From Skermanella pratensis (GTDB lineage Bacteria; Pseudomonadota; Alphaproteobacteria; Azospirillales; Azospirillaceae), in contig NZ_CP030265.1 of NCBI RefSeq assembly GCF_008843145.1, positions 2,404,001 through 2,468,000 of the forward strand: DNA of 64,000 bases. Direction: 5' to 3'. The notes beneath the pieces were generated by a model, which had not been told where the DNA came from, did not search any database, and saw nothing but the letters and a program-made list of their open reading frames with translations. A program made the translations under genes and the position numbers. Every line of letters begins with the position of its first letter. Position 1 is the stretch's first letter. This document shows, in pieces, positions 16,089 to 31,615 of this stretch.

Positions 16089-18014
<1,926 letters not shown>

Positions 18015-18167
18015 CTTCCCCCCAATCCGTGACGCCGGTTTTCCGGCCTTCCCGTCTTCGGGTCAGGCTACCTCAATAAATAAATTGAGGCTAGAGCATG
18101 AACGGAGCTTAGAAGCAATGCTCGTAAAACCATTTTCTTGTGCGGCGCAATATAAGGGATCCCTGTT

Positions 18168-18207
18168 TGTGACGAATGCTGTGTGACACGTGTAACGATG
18201 TGTGACG
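18168..18207. promoter_or_regulatory. candidate upstream activator sites for the AcoR-like regulator
   Basis: Four related heptamers, TGTGACG (18168), TGTGACA (18182), TGTAACG (18191) and TGTGACG (18201), lie 45-85 bp upstream of the -24 element. The middle pair forms the near-palindrome GTGACACGTGTAAC at 18183-18196. They resemble the half-site of the palindrome upstream of acoA (TGCGACA). Assignment to this regulator is inference. Confidence 0.5.
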
Positions 18208-18249
18208 CCGAGGCCCTGCCGAACCTGGAGTTTTCCTGCTCGACCGGAT

Positions 18250-18265
18250 TGGCACGCCCATTGCT
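18250..18265 (+). promoter_or_regulatory. σ54 (-24/-12) promoter of the Rieske/PQQ-dehydrogenase unit
   Basis: TGGCACG-N4-TTGCT matches the σ54 consensus at every conserved position, with correct GG-to-GC spacing. Transcription should start about 12 bases after 18264, leaving a leader of about 120 bases before the GTG at 18395. Confidence 0.9.
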
Positions 18266-18394
18266 GCTGCATCTCCCGCATCACTCGATGTGACGGTCCG
18301 ACGTCTCCTCCTTACGGTGCGGCGCAACCGGCGCCGCACCGATTTCCCGGTCGGGGGCGGGCCGTCCGAAAAAGGATACAGGGGAAACTGCCAC

Positions 18395-18994
18395 GTGGAT
18401 CATCAGGAGCCTGAAGTCGATATCGAGCGCCGGACCGTCCTGAAGGCGGCGCTGTGCGCCGGAGTGGCGCTTCATCTGGCGCCAATGGCCGGACCGGCGG
18501 AAGCCATGGCCCAGGGAGACCCGCGCAAGTCGAGGCCCCAGGCGGGCGACCGGCTGGTGTTCGCCTCCGGCGGGCGCAAGGGCGAGCCGATCGCGGACAA
18601 GGATATCCAGCAAGGTCATCAGCAGGTCATGGCCTATAGCCTGGACCCCGCGTCGGAAACGGTCCGCGACGGCTCGCGGCTCAACAAGGTGATGCTGATC
18701 CGGCTCGATCCGGCCGATCTGGACGAGGAGACCCGCAAGCACGCCGCCGACGGCATCGTCGCCTTCTCCGCCGTTTGCAGCCATGCCGGCTGCGACGTTT
18801 CCGGCTGGCACGGGGAGGAGAGGATCCTCGAATGCCCGTGCCACCATTCCAAGTTCGACCCGCGCGCCGGCGGCAAGGTGGTCGGCGGCCCCGCGCCCCG
18901 CCGCCTGGCGCTCCTGCCGCTGGAGAACGGCCCCGAGGGGCTGGTCGTGGCGGCCGGGTTCATCGGCAAGGTCGGCGCCGCGACGTCGGCCTGA
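18395..18994 (+). CDS. Tat-exported Rieske [2Fe-2S] protein
   Basis: The 199-residue protein begins with a twin-arginine signal (ERRTVLKAALCAGVALHLAP). The Rieske fold has box 1 CSHAGC (ligands Cys128 and His130) and box 2 CPCHHS (ligands Cys147 and His150). Cys133 and Cys149 form the structural disulfide, so all six key residues are kept and a fairly high potential is expected. The start is a GTG after AGGGG; an upstream ATG at 18290 would spoil the signal peptide and lies close to the transcription start. It is first in the σ54 unit, 42 bp before the PQQ dehydrogenase, so it probably takes electrons from that enzyme or passes them on in the periplasm. The pairing is inference. Confidence 0.88.
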   Translation: MDHQEPEVDIERRTVLKAALCAGVALHLAPMAGPAEAMAQGDPRKSRPQAGDRLVFASGGRKGEPIADKDIQQGHQQVMAYSLDPASETVRDGSRLNKVMLIRLDPADLDEETRKHAADGIVAFSAVCSHAGCDVSGWHGEERILECPCHHSKFDPRAGGKVVGGPAPRRLALLPLENGPEGLVVAAGFIGKVGAATSA

Positions 18995-19036
18995 AGGCAA
19001 GCAACTCAACGAAAAACAATCTTTGGGGAGGAAATC

Positions 19037-20764
19037 ATGGACAAGGGATCGTTGGCGAGAGGCATCGCCGCGGTGGCGCTGATGCTGGGTTCGGTGCCCG
19101 CGTTGGCGGCCGGCCCGCTGGACAACTATGCGCCGGTCACCCAGGAGCGGTTGGAGAAACCGGAGGATGGCAACTGGCTGCAATACCGCCGGACCTACGA
19201 CAGCTGGGGCTACAGCCCGCTGTCCCAGGTGAACGCCGGCAACGTCAAGGACATGGTGCCGGTCTGGAGCTTCTCGACCGGCGTGAACGAGGGACACCAG
19301 GCGCCGCCGGTGGTCAACAACGGCGTCATGTTCATCACCACGCCCCAGGCGCAGGTGATAGCGCTGGACGCCAAGACCGGGGACCTGCTGTGGCGCTACA
19401 AGCGCGAGTTGCCGGAGGATCTGACCCAGCTCCACCCGACCAACCGGGGCGTGGCGCTGCTGGGCGACAAGGTCTATGTCGGCACGGTGGATGCCTTCAT
19501 CGTGGCGCTGGACGCCAAGACCGGAAAGCTGGTGTGGGAGCAGCCGGTCGAGGATTACCAGAAGGGCTACTACATCACCATGGCGCCGCTGGCCGCCAAG
19601 GGGAAGGTTATGGTCGGCATGTCCGGCGGCGAGTTCGGCATCCGGGGTTTCCTGGCGGCGTTCGACGCGGAGACGGGCAAGCCCGCCTGGAAGACCAGCA
19701 CCATTCCGGGACCGGGCGAGCCGGGGCACGAGACCTGGGCGGGCGAGACCTGGAAGACCGGCGGCGCCCCGGTCTGGATCACCGGCAGCTACGACCCGGC
19801 CACGGGCCTGTCCTACTGGGGGACCGGCAACGCGGCGCCCTGGATGGCCGACCAGCGGGCGGGGGACAACAAGTGGGCGAACTCCGTCGTCGCGATCGAT
19901 GTCCAGACCGGCAAGATGAAGTCGGCCCACCAGTACCATTGGAACGAGGCGTGGGACTGGGACGAGGTCGCGGCCCCGATCCTGGTCGACGTGCAGCGGG
20001 ACGGCCGGACCTACAAGAGCCTCGTCCATGCCGGCCGCAACGGCTATCTGTGGATCCTGGAAAGGTCGGGGGACGAGATCAAGTTCGTCGACGCCAAGCC
20101 CTTCGTCCGGCAGAACGTGTTCAAGAGCCTGGATCCCAAGACCGGGCGGCCGACCTATGACGAGACCAAGGTTCCGGGCACCGGCAAGCGGGCGGACTTC
20201 TGCCCCTCGCTGTGGGGCGGCAAGGACTGGCCGCCGGTGGCCTACAACCCGCAGACCCGGCTGATGTATATCCCGGCCAACGAGAACCTGTGCGGCTATC
20301 TGGAAGGCAAGCAGACCGAGTACGAGCCCGGCCAGCTCTATATCGGCGTCGCCATCTCCGACATCGGCATGACAGTCCATCCCGGCGCCGACCATATCGG
20401 CGAGCTTCAGGCCTGGAACCTGGATACCGGGCAGAAGGTCTGGACCCAGAAATTCGACAAGTCGCAGAACTGGGGGCCGGTGCTGACGACAGGCGGCGGC
20501 CTGGTCTTCATGGGCGGCACCAACGACCGCTTCTTCCGGGCGTTCGACGCCAAGACCGGCGACAAGCTGTGGGAGACGCGGACGAACTCCGGCGTGACGG
20601 GAGTGCCGGTATCTTACGAGGTCGACGGAGTGCAGTACGTCGCCGTCCAATCCGGCTGGGGCGTCGATGCCCAGCGCAAGCAGGAAAAGCTGGCCCAGCT
20701 CGGCTATGCGACGCTGGACGTGCCCCAGGGCGGCGTCGTCTGGGTCTACGCGCTTCGCAAGTAG
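19037..20764 (+). CDS. periplasmic PQQ-dependent alcohol dehydrogenase (methanol/ethanol family)
   Basis: The 575-residue protein has a cleavable signal peptide (ending PALAA) and then repeated β-propeller W-motifs such as ALDAKTGDLLWRY, ALDAKTGKLVWEQ and AFDAKTGDKLWETR. The catalytic Asp is Asp307 within WDWDEV. Asp309 two residues later is the extra acid that coordinates a lanthanide in XoxF/PedH-type enzymes, and the metal-ligand Asn region YWGTGNAAPW is present. Only two cysteines exist and they are not adjacent, so the vicinal disulfide typical of the family is absent. It oxidises an alcohol or aldehyde in the periplasm. No cytochrome c gene is adjacent; the Rieske gene precedes it instead. 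Confidence 0.92.
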   Translation: MDKGSLARGIAAVALMLGSVPALAAGPLDNYAPVTQERLEKPEDGNWLQYRRTYDSWGYSPLSQVNAGNVKDMVPVWSFSTGVNEGHQAPPVVNNGVMFITTPQAQVIALDAKTGDLLWRYKRELPEDLTQLHPTNRGVALLGDKVYVGTVDAFIVALDAKTGKLVWEQPVEDYQKGYYITMAPLAAKGKVMVGMSGGEFGIRGFLAAFDAETGKPAWKTSTIPGPGEPGHETWAGETWKTGGAPVWITGSYDPATGLSYWGTGNAAPWMADQRAGDNKWANSVVAIDVQTGKMKSAHQYHWNEAWDWDEVAAPILVDVQRDGRTYKSLVHAGRNGYLWILERSGDEIKFVDAKPFVRQNVFKSLDPKTGRPTYDETKVPGTGKRADFCPSLWGGKDWPPVAYNPQTRLMYIPANENLCGYLEGKQTEYEPGQLYIGVAISDIGMTVHPGADHIGELQAWNLDTGQKVWTQKFDKSQNWGPVLTTGGGLVFMGGTNDRFFRAFDAKTGDKLWETRTNSGVTGVPVSYEVDGVQYVAVQSGWGVDAQRKQEKLAQLGYATLDVPQGGVVWVYALRK

Positions 20765-20773
20765 ATCCGGGAG

Positions 20774-21058
20774 ATGCTTCGGCTTCGATCGGTGCCGGGA
20801 GATCCGCCGTCGCGCTGGTCGGCCGAGATCGTGGAAGGCTGCGGGGAATTCCGCAGCCTTCTGCTCGGGACCGGACGGGACCGCCGCTACATCATCGACT
20901 TCTGCGTGGTCGCGGACCGGCCAATGATGCTGATCAGCCTGACGGACGGGACACCGGAGGCCGCGGTCTACATCGAAGCCGGCAGGGTCATCCTGGAGGA
21001 CCGGTGCCGGCACGCCGCCGTGGTGGAGGACGGGATGTTGCGGGAGGAGGGCGGGTAG
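20774..21058 (+). CDS. small protein of unknown function (94 aa)
   Basis: The start lies 9 bp after the dehydrogenase stop, with GGGAG just upstream, so it is probably the last gene of the σ54 unit. The protein is soluble, with alternating β-type segments (RYIIDFCVVADRPMMLISLTD) and an acidic tail. No signal peptide, membrane segment or known motif is seen. Its coupling to the dehydrogenase is the only clue to function. Confidence 0.6.
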   Translation: MLRLRSVPGDPPSRWSAEIVEGCGEFRSLLLGTGRDRRYIIDFCVVADRPMMLISLTDGTPEAAVYIEAGRVILEDRCRHAAVVEDGMLREEGG

Positions 21059-21153
21059 AGGCGTTTCGATGGCCCTGCCGGGGCGCTCTCCCGCAACAAG
21101 CGGCTTGACGTGGCCTCCGGATGTGCGAACCTTTCCGTCATCTGCAAACAACG

Positions 21154-21168
21154 GAAAGGAGGTGATCC
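21154..21168 (+). promoter_or_regulatory. exceptionally long Shine-Dalgarno sequence
   Basis: GAAAGGAGGTGATCC is a 15-base perfect complement to the conserved 3' end of bacterial 16S rRNA, with the GGAGG core seven bases before the ATG at 21170. It fixes the start of the small gene that follows. Confidence 0.85.
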
Positions 21169-21169
21169 A

Positions 21170-21340
21170 ATGTCTCATGGAGCAAAGCCGGTCATTGCCG
21201 TGCTGTTCGGCATCTCGGCTCTTCTGACGGCTGGGGTCGCCAGCGCCTGCCCTTCGCATACGACCCACTCCGCTCAGGCCCCGGCCAGCGACACCGTCGC
21301 CGACCAGGCCAAGAAAGTGCAGAGCGAGACACGCGGCTGA
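21170..21340 (+). CDS. small secreted protein (56 aa)
   Basis: The protein consists of a signal peptide (KPVIAVLFGISALLTAGVASA, with AxA cleavage) and a mature part of only about 30 residues rich in Ser, Thr, Ala and His (CPSHTTHSAQAP, then DTVADQAKKVQSET). A cysteine directly after the cleavage site might make it a lipoprotein, though the -3 residue is Ala rather than Leu. The start is set by the 15-base ribosome binding site. It has its own terminator at 21366. Function unknown; high translation is likely. Confidence 0.75.
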   Translation: MSHGAKPVIAVLFGISALLTAGVASACPSHTTHSAQAPASDTVADQAKKVQSETRG

Positions 21341-21365
21341 CGACCGGCTGCACCATGGTAGGAAG

Positions 21366-21397
21366 CGGGCCGTCCCACACCGGGGCGGCCCGTTTTC
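21366..21397 (+). terminator. intrinsic terminator after the small secreted protein gene
   Basis: An 11-bp stem (CGGGCCGTCCC at 21366-21376 pairing with 21382-21392, one G-T pair) with loop ACACC is followed by TTTTCC. Confidence 0.9.
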
Positions 21398-21815
21398 CTT
21401 TGGGCCGGCGGGACCGGCTTTCCCGGGCCGCAGATGACGGCGAGGGACGAGGAGGGGCGCCCGTTTTGGATGTCGCCCCGCGGTGCGGTTCCTTATTCAC
21501 GATGTCAGATATCCCTGAGCACGGGCATGGTCCGCGGTGGACGGGTCGGCGGATGCTGTCCTGATCGTCAATACGCAGCGGATCGGCCGGAAAGTCAAGG
21601 ATTATTTTCCTGTTCCGTCACCGTGCCGCCGCCACCCCCGGTATCGGCCGCAAGTGTCGGCAAAGGTCATGATTCCGAAGGATGTTGACATGGCACCCCC
21701 CGGTTATGGACGCAAATGTAAACATTCTCGGCGGTCGGGCAGTTGCGGTAACTCATTTGGCTTGAGCGGTCCGGCCCCATCAGCGGTTCGGAGATCGTTA
21801 GGTATTTTGCCCTAA
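21398..21815. other. gene-poor spacer before the insertion sequence
   Basis: About 420 bp with no open frame that has both a ribosome binding site and family resemblance. Short frames on either strand look random in composition. The last bases before 21816 supply the left TAA of the insertion-sequence target duplication. Confidence 0.6.
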
Positions 21816-22678
21816 GAGTGCCTAACATAACCATCGTTCGACGAAGCGGAAGGTGATGAGGGCTGCGGCGAGGTGATTGAAGGCGGCAAAGATATCGATC
21901 CGGCGTTCGTAGCGCACGGAGATCCGCCGGAATCGGGCGAACCATGCCAAGGTGCGTTCGACCTTCCAGCGGTGCCGGCCGAGCCGTTCGCTGTTTTCGA
22001 TGCCGCGGCGCGCGATGCGGGGAATGATGGCGCGCCGGCGCAAGGCGCGGCGGCAGCGGGAGAAATCATAACCCTTGTCGGCGTGGAGCTTGGCGGGACG
22101 GCGGCGGGGCCGTCCGGCGCACTGGCGAATGGCCGGGATGGCGTCCACCGTGGCCTCCAGCATGCGGCTGTCGTGGACGTTGGCGGCCGACAGGGTCACG
22201 GCCAACGGGATGCCATTGGCGTCGATGACGACGTGGCGCTTGGAGCCCGGCTTGCCGCGGTCGGTCGGGTTCGGCCCGGTCTCCCGGCCCCCCTTTTTGC
22301 CGGGACGCTGGCGCTGTCCAGCGCCGCCCGGCTCCAGTCGATCGCGTTGGCCTTGCCCAGCCGGTCCAGAAGAACGTGGTGCAACGTCTCCCAGACCCCC
22401 GCGGACTGCCAGTCGCGCAACCGCCGCCAGCAGGTCATGCCCGAGCCACAGCCCATCTCTTGCGGCAGCATCTCCCACGGAATGCCACTTTTCAACACGA
22501 ACAGGATGCCGGTCAGCGCCGCCCGGTCATCGACCGGCGGCCGACCACCTTTCGGACGGGGCGGACGGGACGGCAACAGCGGCGCCACGACCGCCCACAG
22601 CTCATCGCTGACAAGGGGTTTCGCCATGCCCTTCAGATAGGCGGCGCCAGCCTCTCATCAAGGTTTTGTTAGACGCTC
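21816..22678 (-). mobile_element. IS5-family (IS427-group) insertion sequence, 863 bp
   Basis: The ends are imperfect inverted repeats, GAGTGCCTAACATAACC on the left and GAGCGTCTAACAAAACC on the right (read inward). They are flanked by a direct TAA (21813-21815 and 22679-22681), as expected for this group's TA-rich target. The element carries one transposase in two frames, and its total size is normal for the group. Both ends are intact, so it could still be mobile if the frame change is made during translation. Confidence 0.9.
21822..22627 (-). CDS. IS5-family transposase in two overlapping frames (-1 frameshift)
   Basis: The first frame (22627 down to about 22196) has the helix-turn-helix region and the first catalytic Asp (ALDSASVPAKRG). 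The second frame (from about 22300 to 21822) supplies GPNPTDRGKPGSKRH, the second Asp (ADKGYD) and the Glu helix (VERTLAWFARFRRISVRYER). A -1 shift in the run of five A and six G (minus strand, near 22287-22297) joins them into a protein of about 268 residues with a complete DDE triad. Elements of this group use programmed frameshifting in such runs, so it may be functional rather than broken. Confidence 0.85.
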
Positions 22679-26332: not shown

Positions 26333-26348
26333 TGGCACGGCGGTTGCT
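26333..26348 (+). promoter_or_regulatory. σ54 (-24/-12) promoter of acoABC
   Basis: TGGCACG-N4-TTGCT matches all conserved positions. The predicted transcript starts near 26359, 45 bases before acoA. Confidence 0.92.
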
Positions 26349-26403
26349 CTTCCCTCGACACGGACCCGGTTCACAAGGGTCCGCACCCGAGGGAGGAGCA
26401 GAC

Positions 26404-27369
26404 ATGCAGCTCAATCGAGAAGAGCTACTCCAGAGCTATCGCACCATGTGCACGATCCGCGAGTTCGAGGAACGTGTGCATACCGAGTTCTCCGAAGGCG
26501 GCATCCCCGGCTTCGTGCATCTCTATGCCGGCGAGGAGGCTTCGGCCGTCGGTGTGTGCATGCACCTGGACGGCCGCGACAACATCGCCAGCACCCACCG
26601 CGGCCACGGCCACTGCATCGCCAAGGGCTGCGACGTCGTCGGCATGATGAAGGAGATCTTCGGCCGGGGCGACGGGCTGTGCGGCGGCAAGGGCGGCTCC
26701 ATGCACATCGCCGACCTGTCGCGCGGCATGATGGGGGCGAACGGCATCGTCGGCGGCGGCCCGCCGCTTGTCTGCGGCGCCGCCCTGACCGCGAAGACCC
26801 TGAAGACCGGCGGGGTCGCCGTGGCCTTCGTCGGTGACGGCGCGTCCAACCAGGGTACCACCCTGGAAAGCTACAACCTCGCCAAGGTCTGGAACCTGCC
26901 GGTCATTTTCGTGGTAGAGGACAACGGCTATGCCGAGGCGACCGCCAGCGTCTGGTCGGTGGCCGGCAGCCAGTCCAAGCGGGCGGCGGCATTCGACATT
27001 CCCTCCTATGAGTTGGACGGCAACGACTTCTTCGCGATCCATCAGGCTGCCGGCGAGGCGATCGAACGGGCGCGGGGCGGTGGCGGGCCGAGCCTGCTGC
27101 ATGTCAGGCTGACCCGCTACTACGGCCATTTCGAGGGCGACGCCATGACCTACCGCGCGCCCGGCGAGGTCGAGACGGCGCGGCGCGAGCGCGACCCGCT
27201 CAAGTTCTTCCGCCAGCGCGTGACCGAGGCGGGGCTGCTGGAGCCTGCCCAGCTGGACGAGATCGAGGGCGAGGTAAAGTCGCTGATCGACCGGTCCGTC
27301 ATGGAGTCCAAGGCGGCCCCGCCGCCGGCCCCCGACCGCCTGCTGACCGACGTCTACGTCTCGTACTGA
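26404..27369 (+). CDS. acoA: acetoin dehydrogenase E1 component, α subunit
   Basis: The 321-residue E1α of the 2-oxoacid dehydrogenase type begins with a helix YRTMCTIREFEERV. The active-site loop HLYAGEEASAVG is present, and the thiamine-diphosphate motif GDGASNQGTTLESYNLAKVWNLPVIFVVEDN lies at about residues 148-180. Acetoin E1 enzymes cleave acetoin to acetaldehyde and an acetyl group passed to E2. The start at 26404 follows GGGAGGAGC. It is the first gene of the σ54-controlled aco operon, 12 bp before acoB. Confidence 0.95.
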   Translation: MQLNREELLQSYRTMCTIREFEERVHTEFSEGGIPGFVHLYAGEEASAVGVCMHLDGRDNIASTHRGHGHCIAKGCDVVGMMKEIFGRGDGLCGGKGGSMHIADLSRGMMGANGIVGGGPPLVCGAALTAKTLKTGGVAVAFVGDGASNQGTTLESYNLAKVWNLPVIFVVEDNGYAEATASVWSVAGSQSKRAAAFDIPSYELDGNDFFAIHQAAGEAIERARGGGGPSLLHVRLTRYYGHFEGDAMTYRAPGEVETARRERDPLKFFRQRVTEAGLLEPAQLDEIEGEVKSLIDRSVMESKAAPPPAPDRLLTDVYVSY

Positions 27370-27381
27370 GAGGATGCCATC

Positions 27382-28386
27382 ATGTCGAAGAAGTCATACC
27401 GTCAGGCGATCAACGAGGCGCTGGCCCAGGAGATGCGCCGCGACCCGACCGTCATCGTGATGGGCGAGGACAATGTCGGCGGCATGGGCGCTCCCGGCGA
27501 GGACGACGCCTGGGGCGGCGTGCTTGGCGTGACGAAGGGTCTGATGCCGGAGTTCGGGCGCGACCGGGTGCTCGACACGCCGATCACCGAGAGCGCCTTC
27601 ATCGGCGCCGCCGTGGGAGCCGCCGCGACCGGGCTGCGGCCGGTGGCCGAGCTGATGTTCGTGGATTTCATGGGCGTCTGCTTCGACCAGATCTTCAACC
27701 AGGCGGCCAAGTTCCGCTACATGTTCGGCGGCAAGGCGGTCACGCCGGTGGTGATCCGGACCATGTACGGTGCGGGGTTCCGGGCCGCCAGCCAGCACAG
27801 CCAGTGCCTTTACCCCGTCTTCACCCACATTCCGGGGCTGAAAGTCGTCGTGCCGTCGTCCGCCTATGAGGCCAAGGGACTGCTGATCCAGTCGATCCGC
27901 GACAACGACCCTGTGATCTTCCTGGAGCACAAGGTCCTTTACGACGAAATCGAGGAGGTGCCGGACGAGCCCTACACGATCCCGTTCGGCGAGGCCAACC
28001 TTACCCGCGAGGGCGACGACGTGACGATCGTCGCGTTCGGCCGGATGGTCGGTTTCGCCAACAAGGCGGCCGATCTGCTGGAGAAGGAGGGCATCGCCTG
28101 CACGGTGATCGACCCGCGCACGACTTCCCCGCTGGACGAGGACACCATCATCGAAGCGGTCGAGGACACCGGCCGGCTGGTGGTGGTGGACGAGGCCAGC
28201 CCCCGATGCGGCATGGCGGCCGACGTTTCGGCGCTGGTCGCCCAGAACGCCTTCAAGGCGCTGAAGGCGCCGATCCGCATGGTGACTCCGCCGCACACGC
28301 CGGTGCCCTTCGCGCCGGAGCTGGAGGACGCCTACATCCCGACGCCGGACAAGATCGCCGAGGCCGTCCGCCACGTCATGGCGTGA
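27382..28386 (+). CDS. acoB: acetoin dehydrogenase E1 component, β subunit
   Basis: The 334-residue transketolase-like E1β begins SYRQAINEALAQEMRRDPTVIVMGEDN. The subunit-interface Glu lies in LDTPITESAFIGAAVGAA. The pyrimidine-binding domain contains FVDFMGVCFDQIFNQAAKFRYMFG, and the C-terminal transketolase domain ends VPFAPELEDAYIPTPDKI. With AcoA it forms the α2β2 E1 enzyme in the cytoplasm. It is tightly packed between acoA and acoC. Confidence 0.95.
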   Translation: MSKKSYRQAINEALAQEMRRDPTVIVMGEDNVGGMGAPGEDDAWGGVLGVTKGLMPEFGRDRVLDTPITESAFIGAAVGAAATGLRPVAELMFVDFMGVCFDQIFNQAAKFRYMFGGKAVTPVVIRTMYGAGFRAASQHSQCLYPVFTHIPGLKVVVPSSAYEAKGLLIQSIRDNDPVIFLEHKVLYDEIEEVPDEPYTIPFGEANLTREGDDVTIVAFGRMVGFANKAADLLEKEGIACTVIDPRTTSPLDEDTIIEAVEDTGRLVVVDEASPRCGMAADVSALVAQNAFKALKAPIRMVTPPHTPVPFAPELEDAYIPTPDKIAEAVRHVMA

Positions 28387-28459
28387 CCGGAGGAAGCGGG
28401 CCGGCCGGCGACGGAGTGGCGCCGGCCGGCGGGTGATTGCCTGGAAAGGACTTCAGTCT

Positions 28460-29590
28460 ATGACAAACGAGATCAAGGCCCTGGCCATGCCCAAATGGGG
28501 CCTGGCGATGACCGAGGGTGCCGTCACCGCGTGGCTGGTCGAGGAAGGCGCCACGGTCCGGGAAGGGGACGAGATCCTGGAGATCGAGACGACCAAGATC
28601 ACCAACGTCTATGAATCCCCGATCGCCGGCACCCTGCGCCGCCGCAACGTGGAAGCCGGGCAGACCGTCCCGGTCGGCGCGTTGCTGGGCGTCGTCGCCG
28701 ACCCGGGCGTGCCCGACGCCGACATCGACGCCTTCATCGCGCGGTTCCAGGAGGAGTTCGCGGTCGAGGCCGCGGAGGCGGGCGAGGCGGCCGGGCCGGA
28801 ACCCCGGTTCATCGATGCCGGGGGGCGGCGGCTGCGCTATCTGGTGATGGGCGAGGGAGCGGACGGGGCGGTGCCCCTGGTGCTGATCCACGGTTTCGGC
28901 GGCGACCTCAACAACTGGCAGTTCAACCAGCCGGTACTGGCGGAGGATCGCCCCGTCTATGCGCTGGACCTGCCTGGACATGGCGGGTCGGTCAAGCACG
29001 GGGTGGAGGGCGGCGTGCCGGAACTGGCCGGCACGGTGCGGGACTTCCTCAACGCGCTGGGCATCCGGCGGGCGCACCTGGGCGGGCATTCCATGGGGGG
29101 AGCCGTGGCGCTGCATCTGGCGACGGAGGAGCCTTCACGGGTCGCCTCGGTGACGCTGGTCTGCTCCGCCGGGCTGGGCGAGGAGGTCAACCTGGACTAC
29201 ATCGAGGGCTTCATCGCCGCCGAACGGCGCAAGGAGATGAAGTCGGTGCTGGAGATGCTGTTCGCCGATCCGTCGCTGGTCAGCCGCGACATGGTCGAGG
29301 AGCTGCTGAAATACAAACGGCTGGACGGGGTCGGCGCGGCGCTCCGCTCCATCGCGGACGCGGCATTCGCGGGCAGGCGCCAAGCCCATGTCCTGGCCGG
29401 CAGGCTGGGGCAGGTGACGGCTCCCGTGCAGGCGGTGTGGGGTGCTGCGGACCGGATCATCCCGGCGGCACATGCCAAGGCGGTCGGGGACGGCCGGCGG
29501 CACGTGTTCGAGGGCGCCGGGCATATGGTCCACATGGAGAAGTCCGGGGAGCTCAATCGGCTGATATCCGACTTTATGACCAGTGCATAA
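28460..29590 (+). CDS. acoC: acetoin dehydrogenase E2 component (lipoyl domain fused to α/β hydrolase)
   Basis: The 376-residue AcoC starts with a lipoyl domain in which Lys46 sits in the ETTKITN turn. A short linker leads to an α/β-hydrolase domain with LIHGFGGD (oxyanion region), the nucleophile elbow GGHSMGG (Ser211) and a late His in GAGHMVHME. This fused hydrolase layout, rather than a 2-oxoacid E2 catalytic domain, is the mark of acetoin E2. It transfers the acetyl group to CoA. No dihydrolipoamide dehydrogenase (acoL) or acoX follows, so E3 must come from another locus. Confidence 0.93.
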   Translation: MTNEIKALAMPKWGLAMTEGAVTAWLVEEGATVREGDEILEIETTKITNVYESPIAGTLRRRNVEAGQTVPVGALLGVVADPGVPDADIDAFIARFQEEFAVEAAEAGEAAGPEPRFIDAGGRRLRYLVMGEGADGAVPLVLIHGFGGDLNNWQFNQPVLAEDRPVYALDLPGHGGSVKHGVEGGVPELAGTVRDFLNALGIRRAHLGGHSMGGAVALHLATEEPSRVASVTLVCSAGLGEEVNLDYIEGFIAAERRKEMKSVLEMLFADPSLVSRDMVEELLKYKRLDGVGAALRSIADAAFAGRRQAHVLAGRLGQVTAPVQAVWGAADRIIPAAHAKAVGDGRRHVFEGAGHMVHMEKSGELNRLISDFMTSA

Positions 29591-29677
29591 GGGAGTGTGC
29601 CGATACCGCGGGCGGCGGGCTGGTGCTACACTCGACCGATAACGGCGATCCAACGTCGGCATGATGGGAGGAAGGCA

Positions 29678-31615
29678 ATGGTCCGTCTCCATGCGCCAGA
29701 GCGGGAGCACGTCGATCTGATACTGGCCAGCGTCACAGGAGACGCGGCGGGACGGGAAGCCGATCCGCCCGACCTGATCCGGCGGTCCTGGGCGCGGTGC
29801 CTCAACAGCCACCAGCTCGATCCGGCCCGTCCGGGCCGTCCGGTGGTCCTGACCCAGACGGAGCTGGGCGGATTCCGCGAGCCGATGGAGGAGTTCATCG
29901 GAATCGCCACCGCCGAACTGCGGCGCCTCTACGCGCAGGTCGCCGGGTCGGACTATGTCGTCATGCTGACCGATGCCAACGGCATCGCGGTGGATTACCT
30001 TGGTCATGCCAGCTTCGAGCAGGAGCTGAAGCAGGCCGGCCTCTATCTCGGCTCGATCTGGTCGGAGGCGCAGGAGGGCACCAACGGGGTGGGAACCTGC
30101 ATCGCCACGCGCGAGCCGCTGACCGTCCACCGGCAGGAGCATTTCCGCACCCGGCACACCAGCCTGACATGCACGGTGGCGCCGATCTTCGACCCTTCCG
30201 GCCAGATGCTGGGCGTGCTCGACGTTTCCAACATGACGGCCCCGGCGGACCGCCGCAGCCAGATGCTGGCGCTGGAACTGGTCAAGCGTTCCGCCCGGCT
30301 GATGGAGGACGGCTATTTCCTGGCGCGGTCGCGGCGGCATTGGGTGGTCGGACTGAGCGCCGGGCGCGAGCTGGCCGACCTAGTGATCGACGGGCTGCTG
30401 GCGGTGGACGGCGGCGGCACCATCCTGGGCGCCAACCAGACCGCGCTTCGGGCGGGCCTCACGGGAGACGCGGGGCCGCTGCTTGGCAGGAGCCTGTACG
30501 AGCTGTTCGGCATCACCATGGAGGCGCTGATCGGCCGCCAGCGCACCGGCATCCCGCAGCCGCTGCGCTGCCTGGCGACGGGCGCCACCTGGTATGCCAC
30601 GCTGCGCCCGCCGACCGGGCGCCTGCTGCGCGGCGGCACCGAGAGGACCCGGCAGCAGGCAGCGGCCTCGTCGCTTCCGGGCGCGGTCTCGGGGCCGCTC
30701 GACCTCGGCCGGCTGGCCGGCAACGATCCCGCGATGGCGGGCAACGTCCAACGCATCCGGCGGGTGCTGGACAAGGGCATCGGCATCATGATCCTGGGCG
30801 AGACCGGCACCGGGAAGGAAGCGGTCGCCCGCGCGATCCACCAGGCGAGCGCCCGCGCGGCCCGGCCGTTCGTCGGGATCAACTGCGCGGCCATCCCGGA
30901 GAGCCTGATCGAGAGCGAGCTTTTCGGCTATGTCGAGGGCGCCTTCACCGGCGCCCGGCGCGGCGGCGTGCGCGGCAAGGTCCAACTGGCGGACGGGGGC
31001 ACGCTGTTCCTGGACGAGATCGGAGACATGCCGCTGGGAGCGCAGACCCGGCTTCTGCGGGTGCTGGCCGAGCGGGAGATCCTGCCGCTGGGCCATGACC
31101 GGCCGATCGCGGTCGACCTCAGCGTCATCTGCGCCACCCACCAGGACCTGGAGAGGCTGGTCGCCGACGGGCGATTCCGCGAGGACCTGTATTACAGGCT
31201 GAACGGCCTGTCCCTGACCCTGCCGCCGCTGCGCGAGCGGTCGGACAAGGCGGACCTGATCCGCGGAGTGGCGGCGCCGGCCCGGATCGACCCGCCGGCG
31301 CTGTCGGCCCTGCTGGCCTGCCGCTGGCCGGGCAACATCCGCCAGCTCCAGACCGTGATGCGGGTGGCCACCGCCCTGTCGGAGGGCGGCGTGATCCGGC
31401 TGGAGGACCTGCCGGCCGAGGTCACCCGCCCCCCGGCGGCGCCCACCCCGCCGGACCCGCTGCCGTCGGGCGAAGCCGGCATCCTGCTGTCGGTCCTGCG
31501 CCGCCACCAGTGGTGCGTGACCCGCGCCGCCGACGAGCTGCATATCAGCCGCTCGACCCTGCACCGGAAGATCAACCGCTACGGGCTGGTCTCCCCGGCG
31601 CGGCTGGAGGGGTAG
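29678..31615 (+). CDS. acoR: acetoin catabolism activator AcoR (σ54-dependent)
   Basis: The 645-residue protein has a GAF-type sensor (about residues 75-215, EGTNGVGTCIATREPLTVHR), a PAS-like segment, an AAA+ domain with Walker A GETGTGKE at 374-381, GAFTGA at 421-426 and LFLDEIGDMP, and a C-terminal helix-turn-helix (CVTRAADELHISRSTLHRKI). The start at 29678 follows GGGAGGAAGG. It lies 87 bp after acoC in the same direction. It should bind the palindrome at 26242 and activate the σ54 promoter at 26333 in response to acetoin. It is closely similar in sequence and layout to the regulator at 16089. Confidence 0.93.
   Translation: MVRLHAPEREHVDLILASVTGDAAGREADPPDLIRRSWARCLNSHQLDPARPGRPVVLTQTELGGFREPMEEFIGIATAELRRLYAQVAGSDYVVMLTDANGIAVDYLGHASFEQELKQAGLYLGSIWSEAQEGTNGVGTCIATREPLTVHRQEHFRTRHTSLTCTVAPIFDPSGQMLGVLDVSNMTAPADRRSQMLALELVKRSARLMEDGYFLARSRRHWVVGLSAGRELADLVIDGLLAVDGGGTILGANQTALRAGLTGDAGPLLGRSLYELFGITMEALIGRQRTGIPQPLRCLATGATWYATLRPPTGRLLRGGTERTRQQAAASSLPGAVSGPLDLGRLAGNDPAMAGNVQRIRRVLDKGIGIMILGETGTGKEAVARAIHQASARAARPFVGINCAAIPESLIESELFGYVEGAFTGARRGGVRGKVQLADGGTLFLDEIGDMPLGAQTRLLRVLAEREILPLGHDRPIAVDLSVICATHQDLERLVADGRFREDLYYRLNGLSLTLPPLRERSDKADLIRGVAAPARIDPPALSALLACRWPGNIRQLQTVMRVATALSEGGVIRLEDLPAEVTRPPAAPTPPDPLPSGEAGILLSVLRRHQWCVTRAADELHISRSTLHRKINRYGLVSPARLEG

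Follow-up and report, generated by a model that had tools for sequence, protein, structure and literature searches.

To which redox partner does a quinoprotein alcohol dehydrogenase pass its electrons when no cytochrome c gene lies beside it? The question is raised by a 64,000 nt stretch of the Skermanella pratensis genome (contig NZ_CP030265.1, C1:2404001-2468000 of 5.87 Mb; referred to throughout as the window), in which the gene for a pyrroloquinoline quinone (PQQ)-dependent alcohol dehydrogenase (ADH) is preceded, after a gap of 42 bases, by the gene for a Rieske [2Fe-2S] protein. A preliminary description of this DNA had reported an exported Rieske protein with all its ligands directly upstream of the ADH, and no cytochrome c gene alongside. 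Both statements hold: the Rieske domain and its residues are present, as detailed below, and there is no open reading frame (ORF) of 80 aa or more with a CxxCH motif within 3.5 kb of the ADH gene. We consider it likely, from comparison of the sequences, that the two genes specify an inducible periplasmic module for alcohol oxidation in which the Rieske protein serves as the dedicated electron acceptor of the ADH, in place of cytochrome c.

The adjacency singled out in the preliminary description is conserved in related genomes and on plasmids, and a peculiarity of this one strain is ruled out. Among 289 genomes of the class (Alphaproteobacteria), seven encode a relative of the Rieske protein (E ≤ 1e-10), and exactly the same seven encode a close ADH, these being the window's own and six at 57–62% identity, while the next-best ADHs fall to 39–44%. 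In all seven the two genes share a strand and are no more than 1 kb apart; at one locus (L025) they are about 0.9 kb apart, and an ORF on the opposite strand may sit inside the gap. The class surveys scored the best first-look candidates (up to 11 for Rieske and up to 4 for ADH), and single misses are possible. A scan of named genomes with an alignment of the seven ADHs as query gave at least 528 confirmed relatives, of which the best 80 were kept; the seven query proteins are all Rieske-linked, and distant relatives are under-sampled in these best 80. A Rieske profile finds a partner upstream and on the same strand in 70 of the best 80, including three weak cases (L069, a fragment with 41 bits; L049, a split frame with 90; and L096, with 115), so that all 77 pairs from the two surveys share strand and order. 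According to their record titles, which can be wrong for metagenome-assembled genomes (MAGs), the named loci belong to six phyla (Rokubacteria, Binatota, Acidobacteria, Gemmatimonadetes, Myxococcota and Proteobacteria). The module is also carried by three MAG contigs titled Klebsiella pneumoniae (L041, L042 and L046). These titles are probably mislabels; in the tree described below, L042 falls among copies from Binatota and other MAGs, L041 and L046 being outside the sample. Starting from the Rieske side, class and family surveys gave 13 distinct hits, ten of which adjoin an ADH gene, and the viral contigs searched held no relative of the window Rieske protein.

Plasmids extend this distribution. 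Sixteen plasmid records carry a Rieske relative, and in nine of them (Roseomonas, Azoarcus, Methylobacterium, Alteromonas, four from Paracoccus, and Deinococcus aetherius) an ADH gene adjoins it, as judged by coordinates, by annotation or, for the unannotated Methylobacterium record, by profile. The Alteromonas and three Paracoccus records that were viewed have the reversed order, ADH then Rieske, with the pair retained. On Alteromonas and Paracoccus plasmids (L124, L125, L127 and L172) the Rieske gene is followed by one for a small protein that has conserved cysteines and is apparently secreted, and in Paracoccus a regulator and aldA come next.

The two proteins also appear to have been inherited together. 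Taking the 80 named relatives and seven class loci as the family (87 ADHs), the distances between Rieske proteins correlate with those between ADHs (r 0.89 over 71 pairs, 0/1000 permutations), a value left uncorrected for species relatedness; the 71 rows are those that remained of the 87 after dropping rows with unknown residues and rows whose Rieske was missing, short or broken. When conserved neighbors were clustered, every other partner was found in at most 14 of the 87 loci.

The window Rieske protein matches PF00355 with 42 bits (cut-off 20.3) and carries C128, H130, C147 and H150, which we take to be the cluster ligands, as well as C133 and C149, presumably joined as a disulfide. An ERRTVLKA sequence, recognized by motif, is of the twin-arginine type that directs export by the Tat system. 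The open frame continues further 5', and the GTG at 18395 was preferred as the start because of a ribosome-site-like motif (AGGGGA, 18380–18385) and the Tat motif. The CxH/CxxH ligands and both disulfide cysteines are invariant in the seven class loci, as in high-potential Rieske proteins of the bc type, and across the family the ligands and disulfide cysteines are kept in 75–76 of the 77 Rieske rows and the twin arginines in 74. The nearest solved relative is the Thermus Rieske protein (1nyk/3fou, 130 bits), which, like the bc1 subunit PetA, has the same cluster ligands and disulfide. An assignment to the bc1 complex itself was considered and rejected: the score against TIGR01416, the bc1 Rieske family, is 33.7 bits (cut-off 97.4), and a distinct bc1 Rieske protein, with 231.3 bits, is encoded at C1:880350, so the protein in the window is an additional one. 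It also falls below the cut-off for the small subunit of arsenite oxidase (TIGR02694, 45.8 bits against 95.65).

The ADH scores 588.1 bits against the methanol/ethanol family TIGR03075 (cut-off 480.05), and its AlphaFold model (predicted local distance difference test, pLDDT, 89.6; predicted TM-score, pTM, 0.90) is closest among solved structures to PedH (6zcv/6zcw), the lanthanide-dependent quinoprotein ethanol dehydrogenase of Pseudomonas putida. Four residues that align with PedH are invariant in all 87 family members: E199, N265 and D307, which we take to be PQQ or metal ligands, and R334, presumably the active-site arginine. Two further features went unmentioned in the preliminary description, and both are found in 87 of 87 family ADHs. 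The first is a second aspartate, D309, two residues past the catalytic D307, from which the window enzyme is probably lanthanide-loaded. This residue is replaced by alanine in the Alteromonas and two Paracoccus plasmid ADHs examined, which by motif are of the calcium type, and the Rieske pairing is therefore independent of the lanthanide motif. The second is the absence of the vicinal Cys-Cys, which in type I quinoprotein ADHs forms a disulfide above PQQ; its place is taken by His-x-Thr (H133, T135), and in this respect the family departs from type I. The invariant C389 and C419 were tried as a replacement disulfide specific to the clade, and this was rejected, as cysteine occurs at each of the two positions in 12 of 31 control ADHs.

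These controls were drawn from the class survey and comprise every one of its 29 second-tier ADH sites (39–44% identity), with 31 ADH rows, and heme-c ORFs were identified by the CxxCH motif alone. The vicinal Cys-Cys is present in 30 of the 31 controls. A CxxCH ORF on the same strand, either fused or no more than 3.5 kb away, accompanies 26 of 31 controls and 8 of 87 family loci (Fisher P 2e-14, a descriptive value, since the loci are related), while a Rieske gene adjoins 77 of 87 family loci and none of the controls. Flank lengths vary among loci; at those with 3.5 kb on both sides the figures are 53/61 (Rieske) and 6/61 (heme) for the family against 0/20 and 17/20 for the controls. Four of the eight same-strand CxxCH loci are among the ten without a Rieske match (L081, L088, L089 and L104); the frames of L088 and L104 look real, and those of L081 and L089, with poor codon patterns, are doubtful. 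At 20 further family loci, CxxCH ORFs are confined to the opposite strand; in 17 of these the ORF is 368–470 aa long. In 14 loci an opposite-strand CxxCH ORF of about 430 aa stands 3' of the ADH (for example, L055 8577–9860, minus strand), and the 12 listed offsets from the ADH, centre to centre, start at 1.6 kb. By its motif, this ORF resembles a diheme peroxidase.

A tree of 84 rows placed the family ADHs in a single group of 51 rows (SH-aLRT 99). Forty-two of its rows were sampled from the 87 family members, by taking the seven class loci (the window among them), all ten Rieske-less loci and every third of those remaining, with 45 omitted; the other 42 were congeneric, plasmid and control sequences. 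The ADH of the Deinococcus aetherius plasmid (L126) has a Rieske neighbor yet keeps Cys-Cys, and branches just outside the group (90–93), with one very long control branch between. L126 is possibly an intermediate, and the order of events may have been acquisition of the Rieske partner, later loss of Cys-Cys, and some later losses of the Rieske gene, although the placement is not firm.

An electron route that would fit these proteins can be outlined. The periplasmic ADH would convert an alcohol into an aldehyde or ketone, retaining the two electrons as PQQH2; the Rieske protein, folded and then exported by the Tat system, would accept them singly, in two steps, and hand them to a c-type cytochrome or similar carrier leading to a terminal oxidase. 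In the genus of the window, a divergent AcoR-like activator would turn on the pair through a σ54 promoter. What the sequences show is the genes with their motifs, the promoter box, the co-conservation and how rare heme-c neighbors are; the transfer itself, the export route, the metal, the substrate, the downstream carrier and the inducer are inferred from these. The Rieske protein is proposed as the acceptor because heme-c neighbors are rare, the cluster ligands are all retained, an export motif is present and the pair is co-inherited. The genome encodes PqqE (588.8 bits), gives four PQQ ADH matches and 20 cytochrome c domain matches, and has its own bc1 Rieske protein, so the full route could exist in this organism. 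Aldehyde-oxidizing genes adjoin the pair in Azoarcus, Alteromonas, Paracoccus, Roseomonas and L053, which fits a path from alcohol through aldehyde to acid. Rieske centers of the bc type have potentials of +150 to +300 mV, and the bc1 Rieske protein oxidizes quinol; by analogy, the window protein would do likewise. The potential of PQQ is put near +90 mV, a value also given in PMC11697101, so that transfer from PQQ to the Rieske center would be downhill.

A more specific version is offered tentatively and is, in our estimate, rather less probable than otherwise: the Rieske protein may oxidize enzyme-bound PQQH2 directly, by docking its cluster histidine at the PQQ pocket in the same manner as the bc1 Rieske protein docks onto ubiquinol at the Qo site, and the loss of Cys-Cys would be part of the adaptation. 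If true, the clade would represent a soluble quinol:Rieske oxidoreductase within a propeller enzyme, and a third route of re-oxidation for PQQ ADHs besides cytochrome c and membrane ubiquinone.

Several observations weigh against the Rieske protein as dedicated acceptor. Among the 80 named relatives, ten lack a match to the Rieske profile; in one (L071) the contig ends there, and the other nine have other sequence upstream. Three of the 13 Rieske hits lack an adjoining ADH (two in G345 and a weak one in G362), and the seven remaining plasmid records, all from Thermaceae, include two that were viewed and have no ADH within 4 kb. When the Rieske protein and ADH were modeled as a single chain (pTM 0.70), the domains folded, their relative placement was unconfident and no interface was supported. 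The two unpaired Rieske proteins of G345 (L117 and L118) occur in a genome whose best ADH match is a partial one with a control-level score (451 bits), and on the Thermus and Meiothermus plasmids (L170 and L171) the related Rieske genes adjoin TauE/SafE-type transporters.

The alternative that survives best, though we judge it improbable, is that the electron acceptor of the ADH is a soluble cytochrome c whose gene lies elsewhere and that the Rieske protein is a permanent structural small subunit, involved in stability, maturation or tuning. The 20 cytochrome c domain matches of the genome would supply such a carrier, and the named ADHs without an adjoining Rieske match, along with the eight loci that have a same-strand CxxCH ORF (half of them Rieske-less, two with doubtful frames), fit it. 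If the role of the subunit were purely structural, however, its ligands should have been lost in some lineages, and the near-complete retention of ligands and disulfide cysteines argues otherwise, as does the general absence from family loci of the heme neighbor seen in most controls. There is still less probability, in our view, that the Rieske protein works with a different redox enzyme of the pathway, such as a molybdenum aldehyde oxidase, and shares the operon for that reason only. AioB is a known precedent for a Rieske small subunit of a molybdenum enzyme, and genes of the aldehyde oxidase type (2Fe-2S and molybdenum cofactor) follow the ADH in Roseomonas marmotae and L053, yet such a 2Fe-2S gene was clustered in 6 of 87 loci against 77 of 87 with a Rieske adjoining the ADH; moreover, the adjacency holds in either order on plasmids, and the searched window ORFs adjoining the pair gave no molybdenum-enzyme match. 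That the two genes adjoin by chance or through hitch-hiking, with no coupling of function, is very improbable: despite the few Rieske hits and named ADHs that stand alone or unpaired in the available sequence, it is largely refuted by a pair kept in six phyla and on a Deinococcota plasmid, in both orders and with matching distances.

The features of the locus are collected in Table 1. A single transcript for the Rieske and ADH genes is likely, because the gap between them is short, no terminator-like site occurs from 18000 to 21471 (that is, before 21472), and no σ70-like site was found in 18000–21500. The 94-aa ORF that follows the ADH has no Pfam or NCBIfam match, and among the loci searched its relatives were found by tblastn in just two congeners (97% in L115 and 92% in L116). 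Further downstream, at 21822–22627, are two overlapping frames that we read as transposase-like; L116 has no similarity to the window from 21.4 to 22.8 kb, as if an insertion sequence element had inserted there. An antisense open frame of 995 aa (18281–21268, minus strand) spans the entire module; the distribution of GC over its codon positions is in keeping with a shadow frame in a GC-rich genome.

Table 1. Features of the Rieske-ADH locus, with positions counted from the first base of the window.
Feature	Position	Strand	Basis or remarks
AcoR-like σ54-dependent activator	16089-18014	-	Pfam GAF, σ54 AAA+ and Fis-type helix-turn-helix (HTH) domains; divergent from the Rieske-ADH pair
Identical 32-base block with GTGACACGTGTAAC palindrome	18167-18198	+	Alignment of window, L115 and L116; palindrome and repeats
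-24/-12 σ54 box TGGCACGCCCATTGCT	18250-18265	+	Exact match in window
Tat-type exported Rieske [2Fe-2S] protein, GTG start	18395-18994	+	PF00355, bc-type ligands, disulfide cysteines
PQQ alcohol dehydrogenase, lanthanide-type by motif, without heme domain	19037-20764	+	TIGR03075
Codons of H133-P134-T135, where other PQQ ADHs have the vicinal Cys-Cys	19433-19441	+	
Codons of D307-W308-D309 (catalytic Asp and lanthanide-typical second Asp)	19955-19963	+	
94-aa ORF of no assigned family, 3' of ADH	20774-21058	+	

The preliminary description explained expression of the pair by a σ54 promoter and a divergent AcoR-like activator with an intact GAFTGA motif. In the window this is borne out as far as sequence features go, by the domains of the activator, by GAFTGA in its translation and by the exact -24/-12 box. 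The TGGCAC-N5-TTGC pattern has two exact sites in the window (0.09 expected; two were reached in 1 of 100 shuffles), and exact 16-mer sites number 12 in the whole genome against 3 for a reversed control pattern. Two congeneric genomes (G364 and G365; loci L115 and L116) keep the divergent activator beside the module. The σ54 box is exact in L115 and has a single-base change (TGGCAT) in L116, and the 32-base block, 51 bases 5' of the box, is identical across the three loci; with its palindrome, it is likely to be the upstream site that the activator would bind. The genus is not uniform among the five genomes searched, the window's own included, since the copy in G366 is distant (Rieske 41%) and G363 lacks one. 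Beyond the genus, an activator-like ORF occurs in the available flanks of 3 of the 80 best named relatives. Two of these (L092 and L098) have an exact TGGCAC-N5-TTGC box immediately 5' of the Rieske frame, and in L053 such a box stands 5' of an ORF resembling aldehyde dehydrogenase, after which come the Rieske and ADH genes. The Alteromonas plasmid has an annotated σ54-dependent regulator divergent from the pair, with two mismatches in its best box. Control by σ54 was thus rejected as a trait of the family: it is a recurrent feature, seen in few lineages, and does not define the Rieske-ADH family. The earlier interpretation is supported in part: the pair is conserved, and its Rieske gene stands where ordinary PQQ ADHs have a heme-c neighbor, and a path from PQQ to a 2Fe-2S center is the most likely reading.

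A second exact σ54 box lies about 8 kb downstream, at 26333, before genes for E1-alpha, E1-beta and a lipoyl-hydrolase protein (acetoin dehydrogenase type), and this aco-type operon is closed by a second AcoR-like activator (29597–31615). L116 likewise carries an exact box and resembles the beginning of this stretch (26333–31615). As the activator of the pair belongs to the same family and is 51% identical to that of the nearby operon, an acetoin-like inducer may be guessed for the Rieske-ADH module.

Several known systems resemble the pair in part. PedH is 37–38% identical to the window ADH (TM-score 0.88–0.89) and has the same PQQ and metal ligands and the same D-x-D metal motif; it uses cytochrome c and has the vicinal Cys-Cys, whereas the window ADH lacks the latter and has a Rieske protein as the redox protein encoded alongside. 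Ordinary PQQ ADHs (MxaF/XoxF and quinohemoprotein ADH) share the propeller family with it, but on Cys-Cys, the same-strand heme-c neighbor and the Rieske neighbor the window ADH is the opposite of the controls. Arsenite oxidase, AioAB, offers a parallel, being an exported molybdenum catalytic protein with a small Rieske partner encoded alongside. AioB chains, like TIGR02694, match the window Rieske protein weakly, and the catalytic partner here carries PQQ instead of molybdenum.

Public records annotate both genes under generic names, and no description of a Rieske protein beside a PQQ ADH was found in the full-text literature searched, which mostly excludes subscription papers and preprints. 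The arrangement is absent from the available passages of PMC11996626, PMC10875860, PMC10715153, PMC4013037, PMC10654088, PMC11102522, PMC5023235, PMC11697101, PMC9162365, PMC12314914 and PMC11052242. The passages of PMC11697101 do propose that intracellular Rieske proteins of Bathyarchaeia might receive electrons from PQQ-domain proteins, among other donors, an intracellular setting that differs from that of the window pair. Our results suggest an electron route for PQQ ADHs, by way of a Rieske protein, that is undescribed in the literature searched.

Such a route would matter beyond this genus. The PQQ ADHs are the known lanthanide enzymes and one of the main points at which electrons from alcohols enter respiration. 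A clade paired with an iron-sulfur protein across several phyla, including uncultured soil and marine groups, would alter how these enzymes are wired and annotated, and would explain PQQ ADH genes that have no cytochrome partner. The Rieske-ADH pair would, in addition, provide a small system of two proteins in which to test whether a Rieske center oxidizes hydroquinone outside the bc1 complex.

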